64,000 bases of DNA from Streptomyces carpinensis. Lineage in GTDB: Bacteria; Actinomycetota; Actinomycetes; Streptomycetales; Streptomycetaceae. The DNA is taken from contig NZ_MUBM01000016.1 of NCBI RefSeq assembly GCF_002154505.1, positions 62,001 to 126,000 of the forward strand. Direction: 5' to 3'. Position 1 is the first letter of the stretch, and each line of letters starts with the position of its first letter. The notes beneath the pieces are model-generated. The model ran no database searches. It was not told the origin of the DNA and saw nothing but the letters and a program-made list of their open reading frames with translations. Below, in pieces: positions 39,612-61,512 of this stretch. Position numbers and translations under genes: made by a program.

Positions 39612-42600
39612 ATGCGCATAGCCCTCCGCCGTCGCCTCACCACGTTCGGCGTGCTGCTCGCCCTCGTGGGCAGCACGCTCATCGGCTTGGCGTCGGCGTC
39701 TGTTCCGGCCGCGGCGTCCGCCCCGGCTGCGCCCGTGCCGGAGAGCTCCGGCAATCAGTACAGAGTCCTGGTCTTCACGAAATCCACAGAGGCACACTCG
39801 TCGCTGACCAACGCCGGTGTGGACGCCATAAGACAGTTGGGCGATCAGCTCCGGTTCGCGGTTCAGGTGACCGACGACGCCCGAAAGTTCGACGAGGAGC
39901 ACCTCAAGCAGTACCGCGCCGTCGTCTTCCTCAATACGAGCGGCGACGTGCTCACCACCGCCCAGCAGGACGCCTTCGAGTCGTACTACCGCGCGGGCGG
40001 CGGCCTCGTCGCCGTCGGCTCGGCGATCGAGGCCCAGCCCGACTGGAAATTCCTGTCCGACGTCCTCGGCACCCGCGCATCCGGCCGGACCGACGTGCAG
40101 CCCGGCACCATCAAGGTCGCAGACCGCGTCCACGAGGCGTCGAAGAACCTGCCGGAGTACTGGACCCGTTCCGACGCCTGGTACAACTTCAAGTCCAATG
40201 TGCGCGGCAAGAGCCATGTCCTGGCCACCGTCGTCGAGGACACCTTCAAGCAGCAGCCGTCGGGTGACACGCTCACCGGCATCAGCGGCGGCACGATGGG
40301 GGCCGACCACCCGGTCACCTGGTGCAAGGACTTCGAGGGGGGCCGCTCCTTCTACACCGCGCTCGGCAACACCGCGGCCAGTTTCCGCGAGGGCGACATG
40401 CGCTCGCACCTCGGTGGCGCGATCAAGTGGGCTGCCGGGCAGGCCGATCCGGTGTACTCCGACTGCGGTGCGACAGTGCTGTCCAACTACCAGCAGACGG
40501 CCGTAGCAGCCCCGCCGAACCTGGGCGAGCCGATCGGCTTCGACGTCCTTCCCGACGGCCGGGCCATCCAGACCGACCGCCGCGGCAGCGTCCGCCTGCA
40601 CGACACCAAGTCGAACACGACCACCGTGCTGGCCCAGATCCCGGTCTACCAGAACAGCGAAGACGGCATGTACGGGCCGGGGATCGACAACGACTTCAAG
40701 ACCAACCACTGGGTCTACCTCTACTACGCGCCTCCCACTGTGAAGGACGTGAAGCTGTCGACGGGTGAGGTCGTCACGCAGACGACTCCGACGGCGGACG
40801 CGCCGACCACCGGGGACTCGCCGGCGGTCTGGGATCCCTGGGTCGGGTACTTCCAGCTGTCCCGTTTCAAGTTCGTCGACGCCGCCGGGGACACGCCGGC
40901 GCACCTCGATGTCGGCTCCGAGCAGCAGATCATGCGGGTTCCGGTCAACCGCGGCGCCTGCTGCCACGTCGCGGGTGACATCGACTTCGACAAGCACAAC
41001 AACCTGTGGATGGTCACCGGCGACGACACCCCCGCCGGTAGCGGCAACTCCGGGGGCTTCTCTCCCTTCAACGACATGAAGACCACGAGCGGGCAGTACA
41101 ACGCCCCGTTCGTCGACGCTCGCCGCTCGGCGCAGAACACCAACGACCTGCGCGGCAAGCTCCTGCGCATCTCGGTCAAGGACGGCGACATCGCCGCCGG
41201 CGACCAGAACAAGTTCGGCGGCGCCTACACGGTCCCCTCGGGCAACCTCTTCCCGGTCGGCAAGGACAAGACCCGTCCGGAGATCTACGCCATGGGCTTC
41301 CGCAACCCGTTCCGGGTCCAGGTCGACGAGAACGACGTCGCCTACATCACCGACTACTCGCCCGACTCGCAGACCCCGCAGAACTTCCGCGGGCCGGCTG
41401 GAACCGGCCGGGTGGAGATCGTGCGCAAGCCGGCGAACTACGGCTGGCCGCTGTGCTACCGGACGGACCTGCCGTACTACCGCTGGAACTTCAACACCTC
41501 CACGCCGCTGGACAGTCCGCCGCAGCAGTTCGAGTGCAACAACCCCGAGCACGGGCCGCAGAACAACTCCCGGTGGAACCTCGAAGGCGGGCCCACCGTC
41601 GAGCCCGGCCTCGAGTACGGCCCGCCGATCACCAACCCGGACATCTGGTACTCGTACACACCCGAGAACCGGGCGGACAACCCGATCGGTACGCCGTGCC
41701 TCGCCTACTACAACGGCTCCGGCGCCACCAGTTGCCCGCGGCTGTTCCCCGAGCTGGGCACCGGCGGTGTCGGCCCGCAGGGCGCGGCCAAGTACCACTT
41801 CGACCCGGACAACCCGGATCAGACGAAGCTGCCGCCGTACTACGACAACGCGGTCTTCATGGGCGAGTTCACCCGGGACACCCTCAAGGAGGTCCGCCTG
41901 GACTCGAAGGGCCGAGTGTTCAAGATCAACGACGTGCTCGACTGTGCCGGTCTCAACGCCAAGCGGGTCCCGGACACGAGCAAGCCGTTCGAGTGCGACA
42001 ACCCGATGGACATGCAGTTCGACGGGGACGGTCACTTCTACCTGCTCGGCTACGGCGACGGCTTCTTCAACAGCAACCCCGACGCCGGCCTGTACCGGTG
42101 GGACTACGTCAAGGGCAAGCGCGCACCGATCCCGGTGCTCGCGGCGACGCCGACGAACGGCTCCGCGCCGCTGAACGTGCAGTTCTCCAGCGCCGGTTCG
42201 CGGGATCCCGACGCGGGCGACTCGATCCGGTTCGAGTGGGACTTCAACGGTGACGGAACCGTCGACTCGATCGACCCCGACCCGCAGTACACCTACACGA
42301 CGCCGGGACAGTACACCGCGAAGCTGACGGTGCTCGACTCCAGCGGCAAGTCCGCCTCGGCGAACACGACCATCACGGTCGGCAACACCGCGCCCACCGT
42401 GACCGTCAAGACGCCGGTCGACGGCGGCCTGTTCTCCTTCGGCGAGAGCATCCCGTTCTCGGTGACGGTCACCGATCCCGAGGACGGGACGATCGACTGC
42501 AGCAAGGTCGAGGTGACGTTCGTCCTCGGCCACGACACCCACGGCCACGCCGAGCAGAGCGCCCACGGCTGCACGGGTGTGCTGGCGACCGATGCCAACG

Positions 42601-43154
42601 ACGTGTCCCACGGGGGCAACGTGTTCGGTGTCATCAGCGCCTCGTACACCGATAAGGGCGGAGCCGGCGGCGTTCCGGCGCTGACGACGGTCGCTCAGAA
42701 TCAGATCCGGCAAAAGCGCCAGGAGGCCGAGGTCGCCCTGGAGGAGTCCGGTACCACCGTCGCCACGACGAACGACCCGGACGGCGGCAGTCAGCACCGC
42801 GGCAGCCTCGGCAGCGGCGACTGGATCGCCCTGAACGGCCCGTTCAACCTGCTCAACACCGACTCGCTGACGTTCCGGGTGGCGAGCACGTCGACGCAGG
42901 TGCCGGCGGGCAGCCCGATGGCCGCCGTCGAGGTCCGTCTCGACTCGGTCGGCGGGCCGATTCTCACCACGGCGAATCTCACGTCGACCGGTGGCACGGC
43001 GACCTGGCAGAGCCAGAAGTTCCCGATCACCGACCCGGGCGGCAAGCACAAGATCTACCTCGTGTTCAAGTCGGTCGACGGCGGCCAGACCGGCGGCAAC
43101 CTGTTCAACCTCAACTGGGCCGAGTTCGGCGGACAAGGAGTGAGCGCGTCCTAG
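39612..43154 (+). CDS. Secreted ThuA / sugar dehydrogenase / PKD / CBM6 fusion protein
   Basis: The ATG at 39612 sits behind GAGGAGG; 1180 aa. Residues 1-40 are a signal peptide. About 49-275 is a ThuA domain (YRVLVFTKSTEAHSSLTNAG, GGGLVAVGSAIEAQPDW, FYTALGN). About 290-835 is a PQQ-type glucose/sorbosone dehydrogenase beta-propeller (GIDNDFKTNHWVYLYYAPP, RGACCHVAGDIDFDKHNNLW, EIYAMGFRNPFRVQVDENDV, NYGWPLCYR, MDMQFDGDGHFYLLGYGDG). About 838-920 is a PKD domain (VQFSSAGSRDPDAG, YTYTTPGQYTAKLTV), and about 1075-1180 a CBM6-like module. It likely binds a polysaccharide and oxidises or processes released sugars outside the cell. A Tat-exported TIM-barrel epimerase follows, separated by a hairpin. 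Confidence 0.88.
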   Translation: MRIALRRRLTTFGVLLALVGSTLIGLASASVPAAASAPAAPVPESSGNQYRVLVFTKSTEAHSSLTNAGVDAIRQLGDQLRFAVQVTDDARKFDEEHLKQYRAVVFLNTSGDVLTTAQQDAFESYYRAGGGLVAVGSAIEAQPDWKFLSDVLGTRASGRTDVQPGTIKVADRVHEASKNLPEYWTRSDAWYNFKSNVRGKSHVLATVVEDTFKQQPSGDTLTGISGGTMGADHPVTWCKDFEGGRSFYTALGNTAASFREGDMRSHLGGAIKWAAGQADPVYSDCGATVLSNYQQTAVAAPPNLGEPIGFDVLPDGRAIQTDRRGSVRLHDTKSNTTTVLAQIPVYQNSEDGMYGPGIDNDFKTNHWVYLYYAPPTVKDVKLSTGEVVTQTTPTADAPTTGDSPAVWDPWVGYFQLSRFKFVDAAGDTPAHLDVGSEQQIMRVPVNRGACCHVAGDIDFDKHNNLWMVTGDDTPAGSGNSGGFSPFNDMKTTSGQYNAPFVDARRSAQNTNDLRGKLLRISVKDGDIAAGDQNKFGGAYTVPSGNLFPVGKDKTRPEIYAMGFRNPFRVQVDENDVAYITDYSPDSQTPQNFRGPAGTGRVEIVRKPANYGWPLCYRTDLPYYRWNFNTSTPLDSPPQQFECNNPEHGPQNNSRWNLEGGPTVEPGLEYGPPITNPDIWYSYTPENRADNPIGTPCLAYYNGSGATSCPRLFPELGTGGVGPQGAAKYHFDPDNPDQTKLPPYYDNAVFMGEFTRDTLKEVRLDSKGRVFKINDVLDCAGLNAKRVPDTSKPFECDNPMDMQFDGDGHFYLLGYGDGFFNSNPDAGLYRWDYVKGKRAPIPVLAATPTNGSAPLNVQFSSAGSRDPDAGDSIRFEWDFNGDGTVDSIDPDPQYTYTTPGQYTAKLTVLDSSGKSASANTTITVGNTAPTVTVKTPVDGGLFSFGESIPFSVTVTDPEDGTIDCSKVEVTFVLGHDTHGHAEQSAHGCTGVLATDANDVSHGGNVFGVISASYTDKGGAGGVPALTTVAQNQIRQKRQEAEVALEESGTTVATTNDPDGGSQHRGSLGSGDWIALNGPFNLLNTDSLTFRVASTSTQVPAGSPMAAVEVRLDSVGGPILTTANLTSTGGTATWQSQKFPITDPGGKHKIYLVFKSVDGGQTGGNLFNLNWAEFGGQGVSAS

Positions 43155-44741: not shown

Positions 44742-47700
44742 CTAGAAAAGGCCCTTGTAGCCGGCCCAGCCGCTCGCGATCTTCGTACGGGAGCCGAAGG
44801 TGCCCTTGCCGGTGCCGTTCTGCCGGTAGAGGTTGCCCGCGGTGTCCCGGGCGACGATGTCGGCCCTGCCGTCGCCGGTGATGTCCCCGACGCCGACGAC
44901 CGCGTTGTACGAGCCGCCCCAGTTGCCGGCGATCTTCACCCGGGACGTGAAGGTTCCCTTGCCGGTTCCGTTGAGGCGGTAGAGATTGTCGGCCTTGTCC
45001 TGGAGGAGGAGGTCGCCGATGCCGTCGCCGTTGAGGTCTCCGGCGCCGACGATCTTCTTGTAGCCCTTCCAACTGTCGTAGAGCTTGACGCGCGAGGACA
45101 ACTTGCCGGTGCTGGTGCTCTTGTAGAGGTAGACGGCTCCCGTGGAGGCATTGCGCGCGATCAGGTCGGGACGGCCGTCCTTGGTCACGTCACCGGGCGC
45201 GGTCAGGACGTCGTACTGGGTCCAGCCGCTGCTGCCGAGTGTGGTGTACGGCGTCGACGGCTTCAGCGCCGCCCCGCAGGCCGGCTTGTAAAGGCGCAGG
45301 GCGCCGTTGCTCAGCCGGACCAGGACGTCGTTGCAGCGGTCGCCGCTGAGATCGCCGAGGGGCACGGCTCTGACCGAGGTCGACCAGCCACTCGCCGACA
45401 CCTTCCCGGAGAACTTCCCGGCCCCGTCCCCCTGCTGGAAGGTGAGCGCCCCCGAGGAGTTCAGCGTCAGGAGGTCTCCCACACCGTCGGGCAGCGACGA
45501 GCCGCCGACGTGGTCCCGCCACACCGCCGCGCCACCCGTCAGCCGAACCGTGCCGGACTGGACGAACGCTGCACCCTGCCCGTCCGCCGGCACAGCCGTC
45601 AGCGTCCAGGTGTACGAGCCGTTGGGAATCAGTCCGCCCGTCGTGCCACGGCCGTCCCATGTCGTCGCGATCGAGTACGTGGCCGGTCCGCCCCTGCGCG
45701 TGGCGACGACGCGGCCCGTGGCCTTGTGGCGTATCTCCACCTTCCAGGAGGCCGCCGGTTCGGACAGCCACCATTCGCCGCGCCAGGAGAGCGGCGTCGC
45801 GTCCGTCTCCACCCGCGCGGTGACGTTCCGGTAGGGAGAGACCAGGGCCGCCTCGGGTCGCCCGGTGTTCAGGACGTGGACGGCCTGGTCCGGTGTGGAG
45901 TACGCGAGATCACCGTTGCGCGGGTCGAGCGCCACGAGCCCCGCGGTGTCGGTTGCCCACCGCTGGACGGCCGCCCCGGTCTGCAGGCCGTAGACACCGA
46001 GCCCCTGCCCGGCCCGGACGGCGACGACACCGTCGCCGAGGTGGGCCTGCCCGGCGGAGGGAAGCGGGATGCTCTTCCTGGACTGGAGGTCGTAGACGCC
46101 TGCGGCGTCCGGAGCGTTGCTGACGTTGCACTTCCAGTACAGCCATCGGCCGACAGCCTGAAGATCGACCATGGAGGAGCACCTGGTGCTCACCGCGAAG
46201 GACGTCAGCGAGGTCCCGGTGCGCGCGTCCTTGGCGGTCACCGTGCCGCCCGGGGTCGAGGACCACAGAGTGGTCCCCCAGATCGCACCCGTCTGATACG
46301 GCTCCTTGTGCAGGACCTTGCCGGAGTGGATGTCGACGACCCGGAGTTCCCGGCCGCCGCCCGCAGGTGTGCCGTCGACCAGCACCAGGCTCTCGGATGC
46401 CCCCACGATCCTCGTCTGTGCCTCGGATTCGTCGAAGGAATCCTGGAGGCCCGTTTCGATGGGAGTGCCGGGAAACGTCTCGCCCTTGCCCACGACGAAC
46501 AGCTTGGGCTGCCAGTCGCCGCCCACGCTCACTGCCCCGCGGTACACGGTCCGGCCGTCCCCGGTGGGATACAGCTCGGGGCACAGTCCGTAGCCGGCGC
46601 TGCACTTGTCGTACGGGGCCGGCAGGCCGCCGACCCGCACACGTTCGCCGTATCCGGGCGCGGTTTCGGTGAGCAGGCGCTGGTACGCAAAGGTGGCTCG
46701 ATCGCCGTACTCCAGGGTCGTGACGGTGCCGTGATCCAGCGTCAGCCGCTGGAGCTGCATCGGGACCGGCAGGATGCGGAGCACACGAGTCGCGTGCGGT
46801 ACGGCGTCCGCCCCGGCAGTGATGTCCTGGTAGCCGTAGTCCTGCGCGGACCGGCCGCCGACGATCTGAAGGCCGCCGTCCGGTCGGACGGCGACACGGT
46901 CCGCCACCGCACGGGCGAGAAGCGTCCGCTCGCCGGAACCGTCGAAGGGGACGGCCACGACTCTCCAGACGGACGCCTGGTAATCCTTCTGGCCGAGCGA
47001 AGGGTCGTAGCGGCCCACGATCAGCGAGTCGCCGACGACGCCGAGAACCTTGGCGTCCGTGAGGCTGACCTGGACCTCGCGCAAAGGGGTGTCGAACCGG
47101 CCCTGCTCATAGATCCGCACGCCGCCGGCCTGGGGGGTGACCAGATGGAGAGCGGTCACCACGGAATTCCCGTACACCGTGCCGTACGGCAGAAACGTGG
47201 CTTCCGCGGTGCGGAGATCGACCCATGCGTACTGTGCTACGTCGTCTCCGGGGACCTTCAGAAGCGAGAGGAACCCATGGACGCCGGCTCGCCCGACATT
47301 GATGACGTAGGCCCCCTCGGGAAGGCCTGTCACTCGACGGTCCTCCGTGGTCCCGTTCTCATCGGTCAGCAGATGAAACTCGGTCCACTTCCCGTCGGCA
47401 CCTCCGCCCTCGGTGACCACGGTGGTCCCGATCGTTCTGCTGTACTTCTGCCCCTTGGGGACAGTGACGGTTGTGGTCTCGTCGGTGACCATGTTCCGCA
47501 GCAGTACGTCGCCCGTGGCCCCGCCGGGCGGCAGCGCCACTACGTCCGATGCCGTTCCGTAGTACTCCACAGGGTCGTACAGATGCGTGCCCTCGAGCTT
47601 CCGGGTCGAGCCGTCCGCGCCCGTCCACTCCAGGCCGGAGGGACCGTTAGTGGTGGTGGCGGAGTGCAGGAACCCGGAAGTCCCGGCGCTCACCACATAG

Positions 47701-48270: not shown

Positions 48271-51222
48271 TCAGCCGGTCAAGTGACGCTGGATCCAGTC
48301 GGCGGCGGTCCTGCGGAATGCCCGGCGGTTGTCCGCCCGCCGGAAGTAGTGACCCTCGTCGCGCAGGACGAGGAGTTCCGCCTCCACCCCACGCTCCCGG
48401 GCCGCCCGCACGAACTGCTCGGACTCGCCCGGCGGCACGTTGGTGTCGTGCTCGCCGTGCACGGCCAGCAGCGGCACGCGCAGCGCGTCGATGCGGCTCA
48501 TCGGCGACAGCACCCGCAGCAGCTCCCGGTCACGGTCCGGATGCCCGTACTTGTGTGCGGCCGACTGCGCCAGCCACGGCTCGGTGCCCGCGAAGAACGT
48601 CGCGAAGTTCGACATCCCGCACACCGGGACGCCGGTGCGGAACAGCTCCGGATGCCACACGAGGGACGCCATGACCAGATAGCCGCCGTAGGAGTGGCCC
48701 ATCACGGCCAGCCGGACCGGGTCGGCCAGGCCCTCCAGGACAACGTGCGCCGCGCAGTCGGCGACGTCGTCGATCGCGGCGAACCGGCCCCTGCCGAGAT
48801 CCGCGTCGACGAAGGAACGGCCGTAACCGGAGGAGCCGCGCACATCGGGGGCGAAGACGTCCAGTCCCCGGCCCAGCAACTCGTGGTAGAGCGGATCGAA
48901 CACCGGGCGCTCCTGCTCCTCCGGGCCGCCGTGCAGATGCAGGACGCACGGCGCGGCCTCCCTCGGCGAGCGTCCCCGCGCCCGGTAGTACCAGCCGCCG
49001 AGGCCCAGTCCGTCCCGGGCGAGGGGCCGCACCGGCACCGGCCGTACGGGACGGTGAACGCCGGGGGCGACGACGTCCTCGTCCCGTGAGGACCACGGGG
49101 TGCGCAGCTCGGCGCCCTGGGGCAGCCACCACACACCGGGCCGGCGCAGCGATCCCGACAGCGCCACGACGGGCGCGTCCGGGTCCGCTGTGACTGCCAC
49201 GCGGGTGACGACCTCGTGCGGAAGCGGCACGGCGCGGGACGGCTCGAGGGCCGTCCCGGGCACCGGGACCAGTGGGGCCACCTCCAGCTCACTGACGCCG
49301 CGCACGTTCCAGACCAGCACCGCGCCGCGGCCGTCACGGTCCAGAGCCAGCAACTCCAGCCCGCTGCCGTCGCGTTGGGCGGCCACCGTCAGACCGAGCC
49401 GTCCTCCCCGCGGGTCGAGGGCGACCGCGTACAGGGCGGCGTACTCACGTTCGTGGTCGCTGCGCAGCCACAGCGTACGGGCGTCCGGCGCGAACGCGCC
49501 GATCCACGGGTCGCCGTCGGCGACCGGCACCGCGCAGGTCACCCGCAGATCCCGGGTGCGCACGACCAGGGCCTCCCGCCTGGCCCGCGGCCCCCGGCGC
49601 ACCAGCGCCAGTCGCCCGTCCCTGCTGATGTCGCACACGCGCAGGGTGGCGGCCTCCCGTTCGCTCGCCAGCAGCACGGGTGCGGCCGAGCCGTCGGGGT
49701 CGACGAGGTACGCCGACAGCGTCCTGGGCGCGGGTTCGGCCGTGGCCGCATCGCGGTCCGCTGCGGCGGAGACGGTGGTGACGTGACCGGTCGGCGGCGC
49801 GGGGCGGGACGGTGCGCCCAGGAGAGTGGCGCGACCGTCCCGTGCGGTCCAGCCCTCCGGGTGAACCGTCGCGGCAGCGCCGGAGACGGGCGAGGCAGGG
49901 GAGGCGGCGCCCGCGCCAGGACCGGCGGCACCGCTCTGCCCGGCGCTTCCGGCGCCGGCCTCCGCACCGGCCGGTGGAGGGTACGCGGGGGCCTCGGCGA
50001 CCGTCACCGCGAGCGCGGAACCGTCGTGCGTCCAGCAGCCGAGGTACGCCGAGCTCCCCGGCTCGCCGCCCGCCAAGACCCGCCGCCCCGTGCCGTCGGG
50101 GCGCACGCACAGCACACGCGTGTGCTCGCTGCCCCCCGGTGCGGTGGTGTAGGCGATCCACCGCCCGTCGGGCGACCAGGCGACCTCGGCCACCGGATCC
50201 GGTTCGGCATCCAGCAGATGCACGTCGTCGCTGTCGACCGGCCCCTCCCACAACTGAGGCACCCCGCCCCGGTCGCAGATGAACGCGACATGGCGCCCAC
50301 CGGGATCCACCGAGGGGTACCAGCAGCCGTGCGAGACGAGCACCCGGGGCACGGCGTCCAGCGGCACGGCCGCGTCCGGTACCAACAGAGCCTCGGGCGC
50401 GGCCTGCGCCTCGCCGTCCCCCGCAGGCCCGGAAAGCTCGCCGGCCACGGTCGCCGAGCGCTCCGCGCCGGGCTCTGACGGCTTTGTCGGCGACTGGTCG
50501 GCCACGCCCTCGTACGGGTGCGGCCGGTCCGTGGTGCTCCCTGCGGCGTACGGCCCGTCCGTGGCGCTCCCTGCCGGATGCGGCCGGCTCCGAGGTGGCG
50601 ACGGGGTGCGCACCGGATCCGCACCGTGCTCCGTCCGCATCGGTCGTGGCGGATCCGCCGCGGCCACGGCCCGGCCGCTCCACACGGGGTCCTCTTCCTC
50701 GCCGGTCCGGTCGCCTCCCGCGAAGCGTGCCTCGCCCTCGGCTGCCCACTCTCTGCGGACGGGGCCTCTCCCGTCGCGGGTTCGGCGGGGCCATGAACGA
50801 CCCGGCGCGCTCCGGGTCCGGTCGGTCCAGTTCCCCTCCCGGCCGCCAGGTGGGGGGTTCGCCCCGTCTCCGGTTCGGCGTCGGGGCTCGGGGCCGGCCG
50901 CGCCTTTCGGCCGGCCGGGCTCGGAGCGGTCTGCCGGGTCTGCCGTGATCCCGGCCCGGTCGCCACGTGGGACGTCCGCCGTGGTCTCGGCCGGTTCCTC
51001 CCGGGCAGGGCCCGCCCGGTCCTCGGCCGGGCCGGTCCCGTGGCGGTCCGTGCCGGTCCGGTCGGGCCGCGGGCCCTCCGTCGCGCTCCCGGGCCTGTCG
51101 GGGCGTGGGCGCCGTGGCGCGTCACTCGGCGTGGCAGCCCGAACGCCCCCCTCGGCGCCCCCGGCCGGGCCCGGTGGGAAGGAGGGTTCGCCGGTCAGTG
51201 GATCTCGTGGGTCTGTAGCCAT
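48271..51222 (-). CDS. S9 prolyl-oligopeptidase-family peptidase with long disordered N-terminus
   Basis: From the ATG at 51222 the product is 983 aa. The first 275 or so residues are low-complexity (Arg/Pro/Gly/Asp-rich) and look disordered. Then comes a WD/TolB-like propeller (GCWYPSVDPGGRHVAFICDR, VAWSPDGRWIAYT) with a second Pro/Ala-rich insert, and a C-terminal alpha/beta hydrolase: HLHGGPEEQERPVFDPLYHE, nucleophile GHSYGGY, then HGEHDTNVP and DEGHYF supplying Asp and His. There is no signal peptide. Its start overlaps the amidotransferase 3' end by 28 bases, so they share a transcript. A weak ribosome site (GGAAAT) leaves a later start possible. It is proposed to trim or degrade the peptide made by its neighbours. 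Confidence 0.85.
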   Translation of the reverse strand: MATDPRDPLTGEPSFPPGPAGGAEGGVRAATPSDAPRRPRPDRPGSATEGPRPDRTGTDRHGTGPAEDRAGPAREEPAETTADVPRGDRAGITADPADRSEPGRPKGAAGPEPRRRTGDGANPPPGGREGNWTDRTRSAPGRSWPRRTRDGRGPVRREWAAEGEARFAGGDRTGEEEDPVWSGRAVAAADPPRPMRTEHGADPVRTPSPPRSRPHPAGSATDGPYAAGSTTDRPHPYEGVADQSPTKPSEPGAERSATVAGELSGPAGDGEAQAAPEALLVPDAAVPLDAVPRVLVSHGCWYPSVDPGGRHVAFICDRGGVPQLWEGPVDSDDVHLLDAEPDPVAEVAWSPDGRWIAYTTAPGGSEHTRVLCVRPDGTGRRVLAGGEPGSSAYLGCWTHDGSALAVTVAEAPAYPPPAGAEAGAGSAGQSGAAGPGAGAASPASPVSGAAATVHPEGWTARDGRATLLGAPSRPAPPTGHVTTVSAAADRDAATAEPAPRTLSAYLVDPDGSAAPVLLASEREAATLRVCDISRDGRLALVRRGPRARREALVVRTRDLRVTCAVPVADGDPWIGAFAPDARTLWLRSDHEREYAALYAVALDPRGGRLGLTVAAQRDGSGLELLALDRDGRGAVLVWNVRGVSELEVAPLVPVPGTALEPSRAVPLPHEVVTRVAVTADPDAPVVALSGSLRRPGVWWLPQGAELRTPWSSRDEDVVAPGVHRPVRPVPVRPLARDGLGLGGWYYRARGRSPREAAPCVLHLHGGPEEQERPVFDPLYHELLGRGLDVFAPDVRGSSGYGRSFVDADLGRGRFAAIDDVADCAAHVVLEGLADPVRLAVMGHSYGGYLVMASLVWHPELFRTGVPVCGMSNFATFFAGTEPWLAQSAAHKYGHPDRDRELLRVLSPMSRIDALRVPLLAVHGEHDTNVPPGESEQFVRAARERGVEAELLVLRDEGHYFRRADNRRAFRRTAADWIQRHLTG

Positions 51223-52979
51223 ATTTCCAGCAAGGCAACCTGCCACAGCGCGTTCGCCCCGCGCTTGGTGCGGTGGGCGTCGGGCGCGGCGAGCAGTTCG
51301 TCGACGTAACTCCGGCGGAACAGCCCGCGGGCCCGCGCCTCGGGGGCGGAGAGGGCCTCGCGGACGCGTTGCAGCACCGGCCCGGCCATGTGCTTGATCG
51401 CCGGGACCGGGAAGTAGCCCTTGGGCCGGTCGACGACCTCCCGCGGCAGGACCTGGCGGCCCACCGCCTTCAGCACGCCCTTCCCGCCGTCCGCGAGTTT
51501 GAGCCCGGGCGGACACGCGGCCGCCAGCTCGACCAGTTCGTGGTCGAGGAACGGCACGCGGGCCTCCAGACCCCAGTCCATGGTCATGTTGTCGACCCGT
51601 TTGACCGGGTCGTCGACCATCATCACGTGCGTGTCCAGCCGCAGGTCCGCGTCCAGGGCGGTCTCGGCGCCCGGCACGGCCATGTGCGCCCGCACGAAGT
51701 CGCCGGACACGTCGTGGCCGGGCAGCACCGAGGGGTCCAGCATGCGCGCGAGATGGGCGTGCGGGCGGTCGAAGTACGTCTCGGCGTACGCGGCGGCCGC
51801 CCGGTGCCGGGGCACGCGCGCCATCTCCGGGTACCAGTGGTAGCCGGCGAAGACCTCATCGGCGCCCTGTCCGCTCTGCACGACCTTGACCTCCTTGGCC
51901 ACCTGCTCGGACAGCAGGTGGAAGGCGACGACGTCGTGGCTGGTCATGGGCTCGCTCATGGCCTGGACGGCTCCCTCCAGGGCCTGCGACACCCGGTCGG
52001 AGGGGACTATCAGCTGGTGGTGGTCGGTGCCGAAGCGACGCGCCATCAGGTCGGAGTAGTGGAACTCGTCCCCCTCCTCCCCTCCTTCGGACTCGAAGCC
52101 GACACTGAAGGTGGCCAGGTCGCACTGTCCCTCGTCGGCCAGCAGCGCCACGATGAGGCTGGAGTCCAGGCCGCCCGACAGCAGCACACCCACCGGTACG
52201 TCGGCGACCATCCGGCGCCGCACGGCCGTGCGCAGCGCCTCCAGGACCGCCTCCGTCCAGTCCTCCGCGGTCAGGCCGGCGTGCTCGGGGCGGCGCGTGT
52301 AGACCGGCTGCCAGTAGCAGTGGTCGCGGTACGTGCCGTCCGCCTCGACGACCCGGACGGTGGCCGGCGGCAGTTTGCGCACGCCGTTGAGGACGGTGCG
52401 GGGCGCGGGCACGGTCGCGTGCCAGCTGAAGTATTGGTGCAGTGCGACAGGGTCGATGGAGGTGTCCACCCCTCCGGCCGCCAGCAGCGCGGGCAGCGAG
52501 GAGGCGAACCGGAGCCGTCCGGGCGACTCCGCGAGGTACAGCGGCTTTATGCCCAGCCGGTCGCGGGCCAGGACCACCTTCCCGCTGTCCTGCTCGACGA
52601 TCACGAAGGCGAACATGCCCACGAAGTGTTCGACGCACGAAACGCCCCACTCCCGGTACGCCTTCAGCACCACCTCGGTGTCGGACTCCGAGAAGAACTG
52701 ATAACCCCGCGAGGCCAGCTCGCGGCGCAGCTCACGGTAGTTGTAGACGCACCCGTTGAACACGCCGACGACCCGCGCCCGGGGGTCGGCCATGGGCTGC
52801 GCGCCGCTGTCCGTCAGGTCGATGATCTTCAACCGCCGATGGCCGAGTGCGAAGGGTCCCTGCGACCACAGTCCGCGGCCGTCGGGCCCGCGGGGCGCGA
52901 GCCGGTCGGTCATGCGCTCGACGGCGGCCAGGTCCGGCTGCCGGCCGTCGAGCCGGACCTCGCCGCTGAGCCCGCACAT
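51195..52979 (-). CDS. AsnB-like amidotransferase, N-acetylglutaminylglutamine type
   Basis: The ATG at 52979 has GGGAGG eight bases upstream; 594 aa. The product starts MCGLSGE, so Cys2 is the glutaminase nucleophile. The N-terminal Ntn domain shows RMTDRLAPRGPDGRGLWSQG, LGHRRLKIIDLTDSGAQPM and FNGCVYNYRELR. The synthetase domain has the PP-loop VGVLLSGGLDSSLIVALLAD near residue 275, then QGADEVFAGYHWYP and a GLEARVPFLDHELVE motif. The RLKIIDLT...AQPM and HYSDLMARRFGTDHH wording matches the amidotransferase of the NAGGN osmolyte 'trio' (TIGR03104-like) rather than plain asparagine synthetase. It likely amidates a terminal carboxylate of a small peptide. It lies between a GCS2 ligase and an S9 peptidase. 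Confidence 0.88.
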   Translation of the reverse strand: MCGLSGEVRLDGRQPDLAAVERMTDRLAPRGPDGRGLWSQGPFALGHRRLKIIDLTDSGAQPMADPRARVVGVFNGCVYNYRELRRELASRGYQFFSESDTEVVLKAYREWGVSCVEHFVGMFAFVIVEQDSGKVVLARDRLGIKPLYLAESPGRLRFASSLPALLAAGGVDTSIDPVALHQYFSWHATVPAPRTVLNGVRKLPPATVRVVEADGTYRDHCYWQPVYTRRPEHAGLTAEDWTEAVLEALRTAVRRRMVADVPVGVLLSGGLDSSLIVALLADEGQCDLATFSVGFESEGGEEGDEFHYSDLMARRFGTDHHQLIVPSDRVSQALEGAVQAMSEPMTSHDVVAFHLLSEQVAKEVKVVQSGQGADEVFAGYHWYPEMARVPRHRAAAAYAETYFDRPHAHLARMLDPSVLPGHDVSGDFVRAHMAVPGAETALDADLRLDTHVMMVDDPVKRVDNMTMDWGLEARVPFLDHELVELAAACPPGLKLADGGKGVLKAVGRQVLPREVVDRPKGYFPVPAIKHMAGPVLQRVREALSAPEARARGLFRRSYVDELLAAPDAHRTKRGANALWQVALLEIWLQTHEIH

Positions 52980-53140
52980 CAGGCGGACCTCCCTTCCGCG
53001 GCGGCCTCCCCGGCTGCCGCAGGAGGTCTGCCGTCCGTTACGGACGCGCTGCCATCCGTTACGGACGCGCAGGAAGGCCGGACGGCGGCCGGGAGGGTCG
53101 GGCGGCCGGCGATGGTCGCGGGAGCGGGAACGTGGGACAT
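52979..53140 (-). CDS. Possible 53-aa peptide coupled to the amidotransferase
   Basis: An ATG at 53140 opens a frame (MSHVPAPATIAGRPTLPAAV and on to GEAAAEGRSA) whose TGA overlaps the amidotransferase ATG by one base (TGATG). Its ribosome site, AGGAGA, is rather far (12-13 bases). The DNA repeat at 53034-53065 lies inside and yields the repeated SVTDG. It could be a real leader peptide coupled to the next gene or an accident of the repeats. Confidence 0.3.
   Translation of the reverse strand: MSHVPAPATIAGRPTLPAAVRPSCASVTDGSASVTDGRPPAAAGEAAAEGRSA
53034..53065. promoter_or_regulatory. Paired palindromes upstream of the amidotransferase gene
   Basis: TCCGTTACGGA occurs at 53034-53044 and again at 53055-53065. 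Each is a perfect odd palindrome (TCCGT-T-ACGGA) and the copies are exactly 21 bp apart, two helical turns, placing them on the same DNA face 55-86 bases before the start codon. This arrangement is typical for cooperative regulator binding and suggests an internal control point in the operon. Confidence 0.5.
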
Positions 53141-53224
53141 GGCACTGACCACTCTCCTGGGGCGGTCGTCGGGCACCGCCGGTGACAGACGGCATGCGGG
53201 GCGGGCGGACATGGGATCGGCCCG

Positions 53225-54388
53225 TCAGAACGCGGCGCCTCCGGCGACCGGGCTGGGACGGGGGGTGCGCGCGGGGCGGGCCGGCGCTGCCGCGCGCGGA
53301 CCGGCCGCGCCGCGGGTCTCGGCGACCAACAGGTCGATGCTGGCGAGCAGGTCCTCGCCCTCGGCCGCCTGCCGCAGCCGGCGCGCGGCACTGCCGTCGG
53401 CCAGAGCCCGCGTGAGCAGTTCGTGCACGGTCTCCCAGTCGCCGGACGCCTCCAGCGCGGGGCGCAGCCGGGCCGCCATGCCGTGCAGCACCCTGTGGGC
53501 GGGGACGGCGCGCCGGGTGACCGGGTCGACCAGTACGCCTTCCAGGCCCGAGCGGGCGGCTCGCCAGGTTGCTGCCCGAAGCCACTCGTGGTGGCCGTCG
53601 CACCGGCCACCGTCCCCGCGGGCCAGCCGGTCGCACGCGTCCCGGACCAGCGCCCGGAAGAGCCCCGCGACCAGCACGACCGTCTCCACGCGCGGACAGG
53701 CGTCGCAGATCCGCAGCTCCAGCGTGCGCTGGTGCGCGGAGGGCCGTACGTCCTGGTACGCCATACCGGCATCGCTGATGACGCCCGAGCGGATCAGCTC
53801 CTCCAGCGCCGCGTCGTACGCGGCCGCGTCGGCGTAGCAGCCCGGTGGCCCGGCGGTGGGCCAGCGCTGCCACAGCATGGTTCGCCAGCTCGCGTAGCCG
53901 GTGTCCGCGCCGAGCCAGAACGGCGAGCTGGCGGACAGCGCGAGCAGCGGCGGCAGCCACGGCGAGACCAGGCACATGGCTCGTACGGCGGTGTCCCGGT
54001 CGGGTATGTCGACGTGCACCTGTGCGCTGCAGACGAGCTGTTCGTCGGCGACCCTGCGGTACTCGTCGGCCATGTGCCGGTAGCGGCGCCCGGCGGTGAC
54101 GTTGCGGGGGCTCGGCCGGCCCAGCGGCACGGTGCCGGCGGCCACCGTGACGAGGCCGAGCGAGGAGGCCGTCGCGTCCAGCAGCCGCCGTGATCGGGCC
54201 AGCTCCGCCAGGAGGGCGCCGAGGGTGTCGTGGACCGCGCTGTTGCTCTCCACGACCGACTGCTGGAGCTCGGTGGTGAACCCGGGCCTGTGCAGCCGGT
54301 CGAGTACGGCGCGGGCGCGGGGCACCAGCCGACCGCTCTCCACGTCCAGCACGTGGAACTCTTCCTCTGCCCCGATGCGCAGTGTCAC
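53225..54388 (-). CDS. GCS2-type carboxylate-amine ligase (YbdK-like)
   Basis: The GTG at 54388 follows GGGGAG at eight bases; 387 aa, the usual length (YbdK about 370). Family marks: TLRIGAEEEFHVLDVESG at the start (ATP/metal Glu cluster), TTELQQSVVESNSAVHDT, VAAGTVPLGRP, CSAQVHVDIPDRDTAVRAMC and WLPPLLALSASSPFWLGADT with GYASWRTMLWQRWP. It joins a carboxylate, typically a gamma-glutamyl group, to an amine such as cysteine or another amino acid using ATP, in the cytoplasm. Downstream in the same direction are the NAGGN-type amidotransferase and the S9 peptidase. Here the ligase may supply the peptide bond that the missing NAGGN synthetase would otherwise make (inference). Confidence 0.88.
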   Translation of the reverse strand: MTLRIGAEEEFHVLDVESGRLVPRARAVLDRLHRPGFTTELQQSVVESNSAVHDTLGALLAELARSRRLLDATASSLGLVTVAAGTVPLGRPSPRNVTAGRRYRHMADEYRRVADEQLVCSAQVHVDIPDRDTAVRAMCLVSPWLPPLLALSASSPFWLGADTGYASWRTMLWQRWPTAGPPGCYADAAAYDAALEELIRSGVISDAGMAYQDVRPSAHQRTLELRICDACPRVETVVLVAGLFRALVRDACDRLARGDGGRCDGHHEWLRAATWRAARSGLEGVLVDPVTRRAVPAHRVLHGMAARLRPALEASGDWETVHELLTRALADGSAARRLRQAAEGEDLLASIDLLVAETRGAAGPRAAAPARPARTPRPSPVAGGAAF

Positions 54389-55058: not shown

Positions 55059-55736
55059 ATGACATCTCCTACCGATTCCCCAGGCCCCGTTCCCCCGCGC
55101 GGCACCGTGCCGCAAGAGGGTCCCCTGGCCGGAGGCATGGCCGCTTTGGCGAACATGGGCTGGCAGATCCTGCTCACCATGGGCCTCGCCAGCATCGCCC
55201 TGGGCGTCATCGCCCTGGTCTGGCCGGGCGCGACGCTGCGGGTCGCCGGTGTGCTCTTCGGCGTCTATCTGCTGGTCACCGGTGTCTTCGAGCTGGCCGG
55301 CGCCTTCGGCACGCACGTGCCCCGGCATCTTCGCGTACTGCATTTCATCACCGGCGCGGCCTCCATCCTGCTGGGACTGATCGCCTTCCGGGGCCCCCTG
55401 GAGTCGACTCTGCTGCTCGCCCTGTGGATCGGCTTCAGCTGGCTGCTGCGCGGCACCACCGAGACGGCCGCGGCGGCCTCCGCCCAGGAGATACCGGCGC
55501 GCGGCTGGCACGTGGCCTTCGGCATCATCGGGTCCCTGGCGGGAGTCGTGATGATCATCATGCCGTTCGCCTCGATCGCGACACTGACCCTGGTCGTGGG
55601 CGTCATGGCCATCGTTCTGGGCCTGACCGAAGTGATCCGCGCCATCAGGACACGCGTCGAGATCGGCCACCTCGCCGCGGGTACGACCCCCCAGCGGCGG
55701 CCCCTGTTCCACGCCCGTCCGCACCCCCAGCACTGA
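55059..55736 (+). CDS. HdeD/DUF308-family membrane protein
   Basis: The ATG at 55059 has GGAGGAGG upstream; 225 aa. After a Pro-rich cytoplasmic start of about 28 residues there are six membrane segments in three pairs: WQILLTMGLASIALGVIALV/WPGATLRVAGVLFGVYLL, VLHFITGAASILLGLIAF/LLLALWIGFSWLLRG and VAFGIIGSLAGVVMIIMPF/TLTLVVGVMAIVLGLTEVI. The repeated G..SI.LG.I....P pattern is the HdeD hallmark. HdeD of E. coli is linked to acid resistance at high cell density; in Actinobacteria the role is unknown, probably membrane or pH stress. Confidence 0.85.
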   Translation: MTSPTDSPGPVPPRGTVPQEGPLAGGMAALANMGWQILLTMGLASIALGVIALVWPGATLRVAGVLFGVYLLVTGVFELAGAFGTHVPRHLRVLHFITGAASILLGLIAFRGPLESTLLLALWIGFSWLLRGTTETAAAASAQEIPARGWHVAFGIIGSLAGVVMIIMPFASIATLTLVVGVMAIVLGLTEVIRAIRTRVEIGHLAAGTTPQRRPLFHARPHPQH

Positions 55737-58196: not shown

Positions 58197-59282
58197 ATGT
58201 CGAAGGCATTCGAGCCCTACGAGCTGGGTGGCAAGCTCCTGGCCAACCGCCTGGTGATGGCGCCGATGACCCGCAGCCGCGCTTACGGTCCCGGCCAGAG
58301 CCCCATGCCGTTGATGGCCGACTACTACGCGCAGCGCGCCTCCGCCGGGCTGATCGTCACCGAGGGCGTCCAGCCCTCCAGGGTCGGCCAGGGCTACCCC
58401 GACACCCCCGGCATCCACACCGCCGGGCAGGTCGCTGCCTGGCGGAAGGTGACCGACGCCGTGCATGCCCAGAGTGGCGCGATCTACCTCCAGATCATGC
58501 ACACCGGACGGGTCGGCCACCCCGCGCTGACGGGCCTGCAACCCGTCGGCCCCTCCGCCGTCGCGGCCGCCGGGCAGGTGTACACCCACGAAGGCCCCCA
58601 GGACTTCGTCACCCCGCACGAACTGACCGACGCCGAGATCCGCGCCACCATCGCCGACTACGCCACCGCCGCCCGAAACGCCATCGAGGCCGGCTTCGAC
58701 GGCGTCGAACTGCACGGCGCCAACGGGTATCTCATCCACCAGTTCCTCGCCCCGAACAGCAACCAGCGCACCGACGAGTGGGGCAGCAGCCCCGAGAAGC
58801 GCATCCGCTTCGCCGTGGAGACCACCAAGGCCGTCGTCGAAGCCATCGGCGCGGACAAGGTCGGCTTCCGCCTCTCCCCGGGCAACCCCTACAACGACAT
58901 CGACGAGTCCGACACCGCCGACGCCGAGGCCACCTACACCGCCCTGGTCGAGGCGCTCGCCCCGCTGAACCTCGCCTACCTGCACCAGTTGGAGGCCCCC
59001 GGCGTACGTGACCTGACGCTCCGGCTGCGCAAGGCATGGCCCACGGCCTTCATCCTCAACCCCTTCACCGGCCAGGAGCCCACCGGACCGGCCGAGCTGG
59101 AACTCGTCGAGAACGGCACCGCCGACCTGATCGCCTACGGCGCCCTCTTCCTCGCCAACCCCGACCTGCCCGCCCGCCTGGCCCAGGGCGGCCCGTTCAA
59201 CACCCCCGACCCCGCCACCTTCTACGGCGGCCACGAGAAGGGCTTCACCGACTACCCCACGCTGGAGGAGGCCCACGCCTGA
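58197..59282 (+). CDS. Old Yellow Enzyme-family alkene reductase
   Basis: 361 aa from the ATG at 58197 (weak AAAGAG ribosome site). OYE signatures run in order: FEPYELGGKLLANRLVMAPMTRSRA, YYAQRASAGLIVTEG, IYLQIMHTGRVGH, the catalytic and substrate-binding HGANGYLIHQFLAP near residue 180, QRTDEWGSSPEKRIRF, VGFRLSPGNPYNDI, and a flavin phosphate-binding ALFLANPDLPARL near the end. FMN-dependent enzymes of this type reduce activated C=C bonds of enals and enones using NAD(P)H and help detoxify electrophiles. A MarR regulator gene follows after 167 bp in the same direction. Confidence 0.92.
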   Translation: MSKAFEPYELGGKLLANRLVMAPMTRSRAYGPGQSPMPLMADYYAQRASAGLIVTEGVQPSRVGQGYPDTPGIHTAGQVAAWRKVTDAVHAQSGAIYLQIMHTGRVGHPALTGLQPVGPSAVAAAGQVYTHEGPQDFVTPHELTDAEIRATIADYATAARNAIEAGFDGVELHGANGYLIHQFLAPNSNQRTDEWGSSPEKRIRFAVETTKAVVEAIGADKVGFRLSPGNPYNDIDESDTADAEATYTALVEALAPLNLAYLHQLEAPGVRDLTLRLRKAWPTAFILNPFTGQEPTGPAELELVENGTADLIAYGALFLANPDLPARLAQGGPFNTPDPATFYGGHEKGFTDYPTLEEAHA

Positions 59283-59449
59283 CGGTTCGGCGACGGACCC
59301 GAGCACGCCGGGCATGCCGCACCTGAGCACATACCCTGCTCTCAGGATGCGGACCCGAGGGCCTGCGCGCGGCAGTCGGCCTCGACTCCGGCTGCCGCGC
59401 GCAGGCTCCGGCAAGGACGGCCGCGCGGGAGAAAGCAGAAGGCAGCACC

Positions 59450-59962
59450 ATGGAATCCGAGGCAACGCCCCAGGTCCCCGAGACCGGGGAACTCCCCGAG
59501 GCCGCACGCCGCGGACCGATCAGCCATACGATCTTCCGGGTGGCCCGCCTGCACCGCATGCTCGCCGGCCACCTGCTGCGCGAGGTCGGTCTGCACCCGG
59601 CCCAGGAGCTGGTCATGATGCAGCTGTGGGACCGCGGCCGAATGCGCCAGACCGACCTGGCCCGACACGTCGGCGCCGACGCCGCCACCATGACCCGCAC
59701 CATCCAGCGCCTGGAGAAGGCCGGCTTCGTGCGCCGCGTGCGCTCCACCAGCGACAAGCGCTCCGTCCTGGTCGAACCCACCGCCGCCAGCCAGGCCCTG
59801 CGCCAACAGGTCGAAGACCTCTGGGCCCGCCTCGAGGACTACGTCGCCGGCGACCTCACCGACGCCGAACGCGACGAGACCCTCGGCGTCCTCGAACGTC
59901 TCGAAACCAACCTGGCCGCCCACATCGGCGACGCCGAACCGCCCTCACGCCCCGGCGCCTGA
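59450..59962 (+). CDS. MarR-family transcriptional regulator
   Basis: 170 aa from the ATG at 59450 (GAAGGCAG upstream). Residues about 25-155 form the MarR winged helix: ISHTIFRVARLHRMLAGHLL, LHPAQELVMMQLWDRGRMRQ, TDLARHVGADAATMTRTIQRLEKAGFVRRV and the wing RSTSDKRSVLVEPT, then the dimerisation helices. It likely represses the upstream alkene reductase, itself, or both, responding to a phenolic or electrophilic ligand; the crossed repeats at 57961-58131 are possible targets. Confidence 0.9.
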   Translation: MESEATPQVPETGELPEAARRGPISHTIFRVARLHRMLAGHLLREVGLHPAQELVMMQLWDRGRMRQTDLARHVGADAATMTRTIQRLEKAGFVRRVRSTSDKRSVLVEPTAASQALRQQVEDLWARLEDYVAGDLTDAERDETLGVLERLETNLAAHIGDAEPPSRPGA

Positions 59963-60042: not shown

Positions 60043-61512
60043 TCACGCGACCGATGCCAGGACGGGAGCGACGGGACATGACGGGGCTGACTGCTCAGCC
60101 CACACGATCTTCCCGGCGGGGGTGAAGCGGGTTCCCCACCGCTCGGCGAACTGGGCGACGAGGAAGATTCCGCGACCGCCTTCGTCCGTGGATGTTGCGT
60201 AGCGCAGGTGCGGGGAGGTGCTGCTCCCGTCGCTGACCTCCATCACCAGGTTGGTTTCGCGCAGAAGACGCAGGTGGACAGGGGGTGCCCCGTACCGGAT
60301 GGCGTTGGTGACCAGCTCGCTGAGGATCAGTTCGGTGGTGAATGCCGTCTCCTCCTCCAGGTTCCAGTCGGCCAGCCTCGCGGACACCTCGGCGCGCAGG
60401 GCGGACACCGCGGTAGGAGAGGCCGGGATGTCCCATTCGGCGATACCGTCACGTGGGAACGCGCGGGTGCGGGCGATCAGGAGAGCGACGTCGTCGATTG
60501 GACGGGCGGGGAGCACCGCCTCCAGGATCCTCTCGCACGTCTCCTCCGGGTCGGCCCCCGCGCCGGAGAGCGCGTCGCGCAGCAGCTTCAGGCCGGTGCC
60601 GATGTCGCGGTGCCGGTCCTCGAGGAGCCCGTCGGTGTACAGGACGAGCTGCGTGTCCTCCGGCAGCTGCCGCTCGACAGCCTCAAAGCGCAGGCCGCCT
60701 ATACCGAGCGGGGGACATTCGGGCAGGTCGAGAATCTCCGCGCGGCCGTCCGGATGGACGATGGCGGGCGGAAAGTGACCGGCTCTTGCCATCGCGCAGC
60801 TACAGGAGACCGGGTCGTAGATCGCATACAGGCACGTAGCCGCGACGATCCCATCCGCACCGGCGCCCGCCTCCGCATCCATCTCGAGAACCACGTCGTC
60901 GAGGCGGGCCAGCAGTTCGTCGGGCGGCAGGTCAAGGGTGGAGAAATTACGGACCGCGGTGCGCAGGCGACCCATGGTGACCGCAGAGCTCAGGCCATGG
61001 CCGACCACGTCACCGACCACAAGAGCGGTGCGGAAGCCTGGAAGTGGGATCAGGTCGAACCAGTCCCCGCCGACATCGGCCTCGGCCGGCACGTACCGGT
61101 ACGCCGCCCGGACGGCACTGGTGTCCGGCAGCAGATGGGGCAGCAGGCTGCGCTGCAGGGTGGTGGCGATGGTTCGCTCGCGGCTGTAGCGGCGAGCCAG
61201 CTGAGAGACCGCAAGGCCGACGACGAGCAGCAGCCCGGCGGTGATGATGTCGTCCGAGTTGTTTATGTAGGTGAAACTCGCGTACGGAGTGGTGAAGAAG
61301 AAAACGAACCACACGGCGGCGGACAGGGCCGTGAGGACCGCAGCCCCACGGTTGCCGAGGGCGGCCACCGCCGCGACGACCAACGTCAGGATCAGGACCA
61401 CGTTGGTGGCGGACAGGGTCCCTCGGAGGGGAAGCAGCAGCAAACAGACGGCGAGCGGGGCCGCTACTGCCGCAAGGAGCGCGGTCAGCCCCCTGACCAG
61501 ATCACGAGGCAT
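60043..61512 (-). CDS. SpoIIE-type PP2C phosphatase with sensor and anti-sigma kinase-like domains
   Basis: The ATG at 61512 has GGGAGG six bases upstream; 489 aa. Residues about 5-90 are four membrane helices of DUF4118 sensor type (NRGAAVLTALSAAVWFVFFF, TTPYASFTYINNSDDIITAG). About 100-330 is the SpoIIE phosphatase (YVPAEADVGGDWFDLIPLPG, VVGDVVGHGLSSAVTMG, LVLYTDGLLEDR), with metal aspartates in GGDW, GDVVGHG and TDGL. About 355-470 is a HATPase_c_2 domain (ELILSELVTNAIRYG, EGGRGIFLVAQFAERWG). Such proteins control anti-anti-sigma/anti-sigma switches through dephosphorylation. No sigma-factor gene is next to it. Confidence 0.92.
   Translation of the reverse strand: MPRDLVRGLTALLAAVAAPLAVCLLLLPLRGTLSATNVVLILTLVVAAVAALGNRGAAVLTALSAAVWFVFFFTTPYASFTYINNSDDIITAGLLLVVGLAVSQLARRYSRERTIATTLQRSLLPHLLPDTSAVRAAYRYVPAEADVGGDWFDLIPLPGFRTALVVGDVVGHGLSSAVTMGRLRTAVRNFSTLDLPPDELLARLDDVVLEMDAEAGAGADGIVAATCLYAIYDPVSCSCAMARAGHFPPAIVHPDGRAEILDLPECPPLGIGGLRFEAVERQLPEDTQLVLYTDGLLEDRHRDIGTGLKLLRDALSGAGADPEETCERILEAVLPARPIDDVALLIARTRAFPRDGIAEWDIPASPTAVSALRAEVSARLADWNLEEETAFTTELILSELVTNAIRYGAPPVHLRLLRETNLVMEVSDGSSTSPHLRYATSTDEGGRGIFLVAQFAERWGTRFTPAGKIVWAEQSAPSCPVAPVLASVA

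Follow-up and report, generated by a model that had tools for sequence, protein, structure and literature searches.

What does an amidotransferase of the N-acetylglutaminylglutamine amide (NAGGN) type do in a Streptomyces genome in which the NAGGN synthetase is not found? The question is raised by a 64,000-nucleotide stretch of Streptomyces carpinensis DNA (the window, 70% G+C, on contig 68 of a 10.4-Mb assembly in 824 contigs that is 99.92% complete). An earlier note, made from the sequence alone, had read three packed minus-strand genes here as a GCS2 ligase, an AsnB-like amidotransferase (AT) and an S9 peptidase, and profile searches identified all three as such. In the known NAGGN trio, asnO (TIGR03104) is accompanied by ngg (TIGR03103) and a gene for an M42 hydrolase (TIGR03106), for example PA3459-PA3461 of Pseudomonas aeruginosa (PMC8070244). 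Ngg acetylates one glutamine and joins a second, AsnO amidates, and deletion mutants of P. aeruginosa are slow-growing at high osmolarity (PMC8070244). The reading that we favour, with moderate confidence, is that the S. carpinensis genes form a stress-controlled, NAGGN-like operon making a small peptide amide with a different synthetase module, GCS2 standing in place of Ngg. The features of the locus are:

53225..54388, minus strand: GCS2 (YbdK-type carboxylate-amine ligase), 387 aa, GTG start; PF04107, TIGR02050
51195..52979, minus strand: AT, N-acetylglutaminylglutamine amidotransferase family, 594 aa, ATG start; TIGR03104
48271..51222, minus strand: S9-family peptidase, 983 aa if started at the ATG overlapping the AT stop; PF00326
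50451..51222, minus strand: N-terminal extension of S9, Pro/Arg/Gly-rich, poorly conserved, about 257 aa
54473..54498, minus strand: candidate sigmaB-family promoter, GCTT-spacer-GGGCAC, ending 84 bp before the GCS2 start

The S9 start had also been placed inside the end of AT. From the sequence, the likely ATG lies at 51222 and overlaps the AT stop by 28 bp; in Streptomyces fungicidicus the annotated S9 gene overlaps AT by 25 bp. Alone, such an overlapping start is weak evidence, because the AT codons there create both a GTG and an ATG in the S9 frame.

The NAGGN synthetase and M42 hydrolase are absent together

The earlier note saw no synthetase in the flanks, and this holds across the whole assembly, where the best match to TIGR03103 in a profile search scored 29.8 bits against a cut-off of 569. 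Nor did a full NAGGN synthetase in relatives, which would have spoken against that note, come to light: TIGR03103 was found in none of 101 genus genomes (E <= 1e-60). The genus search had no match in its built-in controls, and actinobacteria carrying TIGR03104, searched with the same profile, served as the positive control. Among these 46 genomes, 32 have Ngg (30 over the cut-off, 2 partial) and 14 have none. The M42 trio hydrolase TIGR03106 (E <= 1e-40) follows the same division, being present in 26 of the 32 Ngg-carrying genomes and in 0 of the 14 Ngg-less AT genomes, S. carpinensis among them (Fisher p = 1.6e-7; species not independent). Thus, these 14 genomes are without both trio partners. 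By its defining features the operon is not an NAGGN trio, as neither Ngg nor the M42 hydrolase was found.

Ordinary NAGGN synthesis, with Ngg unlinked or missed, might be suspected from the annotation of AT as an NAGGN amidotransferase and from an assembly divided among 824 contigs. With no TIGR03103 match over cut-off in this nearly complete genome or in the genus, we consider it highly improbable; a missed Ngg was rejected on these searches, the profile having worked in 32 of the 46 actinobacteria.

Plasmid records were also compared, by organism counts. The AT records (n=88) came from Streptomyces (3), Embleya (1), Nonomuraea (1), Polaromonas (1) and others (82), and none of the 84 Ngg records came from any of these four genera. 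Two Skermanella records of the Ngg search were absent from the AT search.

The amidotransferase is of the trio type

AT scored 960.8 bits against TIGR03104 (cut-off 570.1) and 423 bits against the general asparagine synthase model TIGR01536. It has an MCG start and the motifs SGGLDSS and GQGADE, and is 60% identical to a protein of Sinorhizobium meliloti 1021 pSymB, on which Ngg follows the AT. While it shares 59-67% identity with eight trio-type ATs from other lineages, it is 32-36% identical to four asparagine-synthase-like proteins of its own genome. In a quick tree of 65 ATs, the trio family including the window AT was split from these four (support 98; long branches). A grouping with ordinary asparagine synthetases, the other finding that would have told against the earlier note, thus did not occur, and AT as an ordinary AsnB was rejected on tree separation and identity.

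Residue conservation was then compared between AT groups. There are 67 columns that are nearly invariant (>= 95%) in 29 Ngg-linked actinobacterial ATs and that the four AsnB-like proteins lack. The window AT and S. meliloti AsnO each retain 55 of them, as well as 62/62 core columns. The AT groups agree in residue at 237 of the 248 positions that are more than 90% conserved in each, and 9 positions meet a stricter difference test; the motifs DDPVKRVDNM and SGQGADE are common to the window AT and the Ngg-linked ATs. AsnO is placed among peptide-amidating enzymes in PMC13060819, in which a predicted model shows an Asp and an Arg arranged for a C-terminal residue whose side chain carries an amide. 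Most simply, the sequences suggest a substrate whose amidated end would match that of the trio, a C-terminal glutamine, while its N-terminal cap would have changed.

Conservation of the operon in Streptomyces

The earlier note had proposed a survey of gene adjacency across Streptomyces; in it, AT-S9 proved almost constant and GCS2 less so. The named loci (79 Streptomyces, 1 Kitasatospora) were the best 80 of 256 candidates. Where at least 1.5 kb is available downstream of AT, S9 comes next in all 74 loci: tblastn showed it in 72, and blastp of the called open reading frames added L075 and L087. GCS2 lies upstream of AT in 57 of the 76 with at least 1.6 kb upstream. Genome-wide, AT was found in 19 of the 101 genus genomes (E <= 1e-100), and a near GCS2 (E <= 1e-110) in 11 of these 19 versus 2 of the 82 genomes that lack AT (Fisher p = 3e-8; species not independent). 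The GCS2-AT-S9 arrangement is beyond chance, and since the flanks vary between species, the unit itself is what is kept. An apparent natural GCS2-AT fusion at L049 was rejected, a masked run between the two genes having produced it.

No further gene is widely common to the 80 loci, the commonest other cluster being a SpoIIE phosphatase (32/80); open reading frames below 60 codons were not called, so that a short precursor could be missed. This bears on the proposal that the operon serves to tailor, by C-terminal amidation, a modified peptide or a secondary metabolite. Related asparagine-synthetase-like enzymes do amidate natural-product peptides (PMC13060819), and in some relatives AT-S9 lies near glycosyltransferases, an MFS (major facilitator superfamily) transporter and a distant GCS2. 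Given the lack of a widely shared neighbour, and an AT that is as trio-like as AsnO, we judge tailoring unlikely.

In five loci (L092, L093, L094, L105 and L118), the genes after AT-S9 are glycosyltransferases of family 2 and of a heptosyltransferase-like kind (family 9), a HAD hydrolase and then the distant GCS2, the glycosyltransferase-type neighbours being identified by Pfam in L092 and by cluster in the other four. The MFS transporter precedes AT in L092.

The arrangement in other lineages

The order GCS2, AT, S9 was also found outside the genus, in Embleya sp. NBC_00888, where GCS2 and AT overlap by 13 bp, and in Nonomuraea gerenzanensis, with a GCS2-AT gap of 10 bp and an AT-S9 overlap of 4 bp. 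Within the set of 14 Ngg-less AT genomes, the five from the genus all have GCS2-AT-S9. In three genomes of a family outside the class (f39), a protein of 890-940 aa with an N-terminal GCS2 and a C-terminal CP_ATPgrasp_2 domain (Pfam in two genomes, blastp in the third) is followed by AT and S9. A second family (f18) has the order GCS2, CP_ATPgrasp_2, AT in three of four genomes (G331, G227 and G473), with GCS2 and ATP-grasp split between frames in G331. There, the place of the peptidase is taken in G175 and G227 by DUF1028 (L166 9862-10584 and L186 7200-7988), which we take to be an Ntn-hydrolase-like family; the G473 sequence is cut inside AT. In the single genome of a third family (f42, G219), GCS2 lies 2 bp before AT. 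CP_ATPgrasp_2 was found in 1 of the 19 AT-carrying genus genomes and not in that of S. carpinensis, so GCS2 here would act alone or with an unlinked partner.

A more careful AT tree (LG+G4) was calculated from 40 of the 65 rows: the AsnB rows (four), a duplicate and 20 hand-picked rows, mostly near neighbours, were left out. Its Streptomyces rows had been sampled at a rate of one in six, with five more selected, and are labelled 'strep' with or without GCS2. The ATs of Streptomyces, Embleya, Nonomuraea and f39 lie across a 95/94 branch from the Ngg-linked ATs. The f18 ATs fall inside the Ngg side (84/89, modest support), and those of f42 and of a further Ngg-less genome, G392, fall on the Ngg side with an unsure place. 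Because the Streptomyces/Embleya/Nonomuraea/f39, f18 and f42 ATs are placed apart, GCS2 seems to have joined an Ngg-less AT more than once; without a root, the tree does not tell gain from loss. The earlier suggestion that GCS2 and S9 replace the synthetase and the peptidase gains backing both from the joint absence of Ngg and M42 and from the GCS2 genes that other lineages carry beside a synthetase-less AT.

A TIGR03104 amidotransferase is also carried by a beta-proteobacterium, on Polaromonas naphthalenivorans pPNAP02 (L195 7375-10833), with no Ngg match in the Polaromonas plasmid records. Its upstream neighbour, 15 bp away, encodes a protein of 536 aa that matched nothing in Pfam (E <= 1e-4) or NCBIfam (E <= 1e-10); pentose-phosphate and phosphoketolase genes lie downstream.

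A candidate sigmaB-family promoter precedes GCS2

The stress role raised by the earlier note is supported in part, by a candidate sigmaB-like promoter upstream of GCS2. The pattern G.TT-N14-17-GGG[ACT]A[CT] was chosen once aligning the closest relatives had brought a conserved block to light. Of 57 loci, the window among them, 34 have it in the 250 bp before GCS2, compared with an average of 0.47/57 for stretches drawn at random from these loci (maximum of 4 in 300 draws). Upstream of other genes in the 80 loci it was found in 26 of 808 cases, just before AT in 1 of 56 stretches, and six permuted or respaced patterns gave 0-3/56; both strands of the window hold six matches. The count overstates independence because the loci are related. 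In promoters of the nine S. coelicolor SigB homologues, the GGG and the A of the -10 element hardly vary and the -35 reads GTTT or GNNT, with GGGAAC and GGGCAC among the -10 cases given (PMC8346170); PMC3184153 is a further source for the sigmaB-type consensus. A TTGAC-N16-18-TA...T promoter was rejected (0/57).

Several clusters were observed near the operon. A set resembling RsbQ-RsbP, made up of an alpha/beta hydrolase, a STAS protein and a PAS-SpoIIE phosphatase, occurs in 12 of the 80 loci (L053, L060, L061, L062, L067, L068, L071, L072, L073, L076, L103 and L124). HSP90 clusters are near the operon in 13/80 loci and MsrA clusters in 12/80, and an HSP90-like sequence was noticed by eye near the Nonomuraea operon (L179).

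Conserved residues in GCS2 and S9

GCS2 scored 171 bits against PF04107 (cut-off 21) and 246.1 bits against TIGR02050 (cut-off 176.4), and the EgtA ergothioneine ligase model TIGR03444 was not among its NCBIfam matches at E <= 0.001. Its AlphaFold2 model (mean predicted local distance difference test score, pLDDT, 79.6) matched YbdK 1r8g best in the Protein Data Bank (E 6.8e-19), followed by plant and bacterial glutamate-cysteine ligases and, more distantly, by Dop, PafA and glutamine synthetase. Template modelling (TM) scores of 0.78 and 0.85 between this model (m9adb8b1601a0) and 1r8g_A support the GCS fold. Residues G6, E8-E10, E40, E47, H125, R169, R215, T222, E224 and R226 are invariant in 26 aligned sequences, the window's included.

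S9 scored 145.6 bits against PF00326; its best NCBIfam match, dipeptidyl-peptidase Dpp5, reached 76 bits against a cut-off of 900. The catalytic Ser605, Asp687 and His719 (numbering of 48271-50505) are invariant in 19 aligned sequences including that of the window. With most relatives, alignment begins only at about residue 254-300. The S9 model, which starts within the N-terminal extension, has a mean pLDDT of 69.9, with 193 of 744 residues, including the first 58, below 50. Because the conserved acidic/basic and catalytic residues are invariant, GCS2 and S9 look active.

The best match of S9, in sequence and fold alike, is the acylaminoacyl peptidase 5l8s. Some S9 relatives are peptide cyclases, one of them (PCY1) being among the sequence and structure matches, and S9 is the most constant partner of AT. 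It could therefore be supposed that S9 acts in synthesis, trimming or transferring a peptide into the AT substrate, with no degradation of the product. Against this stand the acylaminoacyl peptidase match and the annotation of the third gene of the known trio as a peptidase (PMC8070244), and we think a synthetic role improbable.

Weighing the three-gene pathway

A number of observations weigh against GCS2, AT and S9 acting as one stress-controlled pathway. GCS2 is missing upstream of AT in 19 of 76 loci whereas AT-S9 is nearly constant, which counts against a strict three-gene pathway. In 11 of these 19, no GCS2 was found in the DNA covered; in the other 8, a distant GCS2 (35-37% identical) lies downstream, either next to S9 (L111, L116 and L100, on the other strand in L100) or several kilobases on (L092-L094, L105 and L118). 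Eight of the 19 AT-carrying genus genomes are without any near GCS2, while a near GCS2 without AT occurs in G077 and G087 and as a second, separate copy in S. carpinensis itself. AT is without an adjacent S9 in G046 (L041), among 18 further genus loci read. Outside the genus, ATP-grasp and AT are present in G175 (f18) with no GCS2 seen, and in G392, where S9 follows AT, neither an Ngg in the genome nor a GCS2 within the 17.8 kb read was found. Tree support is modest in places, long branches were flagged (f42 and S. meliloti meet), and f42 is one genome. As for the promoter, the pattern was found in only 3 of 23 stretches before an AT without a scored GCS2 start, some of them cut at contig ends, and not upstream of GCS2 in Embleya or Nonomuraea. 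Its -10 element (GGG[AC]AC) departs from the commonest form, and the promoter claim rests on the wider -10 of the pattern, because the strict pattern G..T-N14-17-GGGTA[CT], sought in the 350 bp upstream, gave 4/57 where controls averaged 1.0 and reached 4.

In an alternative explanation, AT and S9 would be the real pair and GCS2 only a frequent neighbour in a stress cassette, AT amidating a peptide from elsewhere (for example protein turnover or another ligase). The 74/74 conservation of AT-S9, the G392 locus and the near GCS2 genes that stand alone all favour this explanation. However, the AT tree has three separate positions at which GCS2 adjoins AT, two of these also with an ATP-grasp, near GCS2 is associated with AT genome-wide (11/19 versus 2/82), and 8 of the 19 loci without an upstream GCS2 have another one downstream. 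We therefore regard the two-gene explanation as rather unlikely.

A model for the operon

We return to the reading in which GCS2 takes the place of Ngg. The operon most likely works like the NAGGN trio. Under stress, RNA polymerase with a sigmaB-family factor would transcribe GCS2-AT-S9, as the conserved promoter suggests. Following the chemistry of its family, GCS2 would couple glutamate, through its gamma-carboxylate and at the expense of ATP, to an amino acid's amine (most probably that of glutamine), and the resulting gamma-glutamyl dipeptide would replace the acetyl-Gln-Gln of Ngg. AT, conserved as it is with AsnO, would move the amide nitrogen of glutamine onto the C-terminal carboxylate of the dipeptide, yielding a carboxamide. 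Once stress ends, the acylaminoacyl-peptidase-like S9, in the position of the trio's M42 hydrolase, would degrade the product. This product is probably a new small peptide amide related to NAGGN, perhaps gamma-glutamyl-glutamine amide. In other actinobacteria, a further residue may come from the ATP-grasp protein that is fused to GCS2 or lies next to it.

A wider proposal can be put forward tentatively, as one that may well prove wrong. There may be a second class of bacterial peptide-amide stress solutes with a gamma-glutamyl cap instead of an acetyl cap, made by GCS2 alone (for example gamma-Glu-Gln-NH2) or by GCS2 with a circularly permuted ATP-grasp (a tripeptide amide). This class would have arisen more than once around a fixed AsnO-type amidotransferase, two lineages having their own peptidase-like partner (S9 or DUF1028). 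The suggested pathway would be one with the amidating enzyme fixed and the peptide-making and peptide-breaking parts exchanged. The operon suggests that soil actinomycetes make peptide amides of a group so far unrecognised, and it offers a role for otherwise orphan GCS2 ligases. Streptomyces proteins annotated 'N-acetylglutaminylglutamine amidotransferase' would mislead readers into expecting NAGGN in species without its synthetase.

Neighbouring genes and the second GCS2

The nearest called flanks are a DUF308 protein on the opposite strand (55146-55736) and an FG-GAP repeat protein (44742-47696), neither of which we include in the operon unit. Elsewhere in the window are an NADH:flavin oxidoreductase family gene (58197-59962) followed by a MarR regulator, and an 1180-aa protein carrying ThuA, GSDH, PKD and CBM6 domains (39612-43154). 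A SpoIIE phosphatase with a HATPase domain (60043-61443), about 5.7 kb from the operon, is a possible partner-switch regulator. The second GCS2 of the genome (L183, G000:C79:28928-30055) is 77% identical to that of the operon, with no AT or S9 within the 19 kb read and a cytochrome b gene about 0.5 kb downstream.

Comparison with known systems

No publication pairing GCS2 with an NAGGN-type amidotransferase was found among titles and abstract starts, most subscription papers lying outside this coverage; the survey of such ligases by Iyer et al. (2009) may already note some associations. Micromonospora provocatoris, an actinobacterium with asnO and ngg, is reported to make NAGGN (PMC8146288). 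A Micromonospora paper on 'ABAGG' was set aside as concerning an unrelated compound.

The operon GCS2 belongs to the same family as other GCS2/YbdK ligases (TIGR02050, PF04107; Escherichia coli YbdK 1r8g) and has the same predicted fold. Unlike these, it is of a subgroup tied to AT, being 34-37% identical to the distant GCS2 copies near some AT loci. S9 resembles the acylaminoacyl peptidases, with 5l8s as its closest solved relative and its catalytic residues conserved, but is 18% identical to 5l8s in a structural alignment and has a long extra N-terminus. The Anbu operon consists of an ATP-grasp protein, alphaE, a transglutaminase-like protein and Anbu (PMC6376114). The f39 and f18 variants likewise carry an ATP-grasp peptide-ligase-like protein, whereas the genus has CP_ATPgrasp_2 in just one AT-carrying genome, other than that of S. 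carpinensis. The Anbu-linked ATP-grasp is presumably of the same circularly permuted kind as the f39/f18 one.

The closest comparison is with the NAGGN trio. The operon differs from it in having GCS2 and S9 in the places of Ngg and M42, and in having no acetyltransferase. What it has in common with the trio is the same amidotransferase family, an operon in which this enzyme is joined by a ligase and a peptidase, and probably control by stress.

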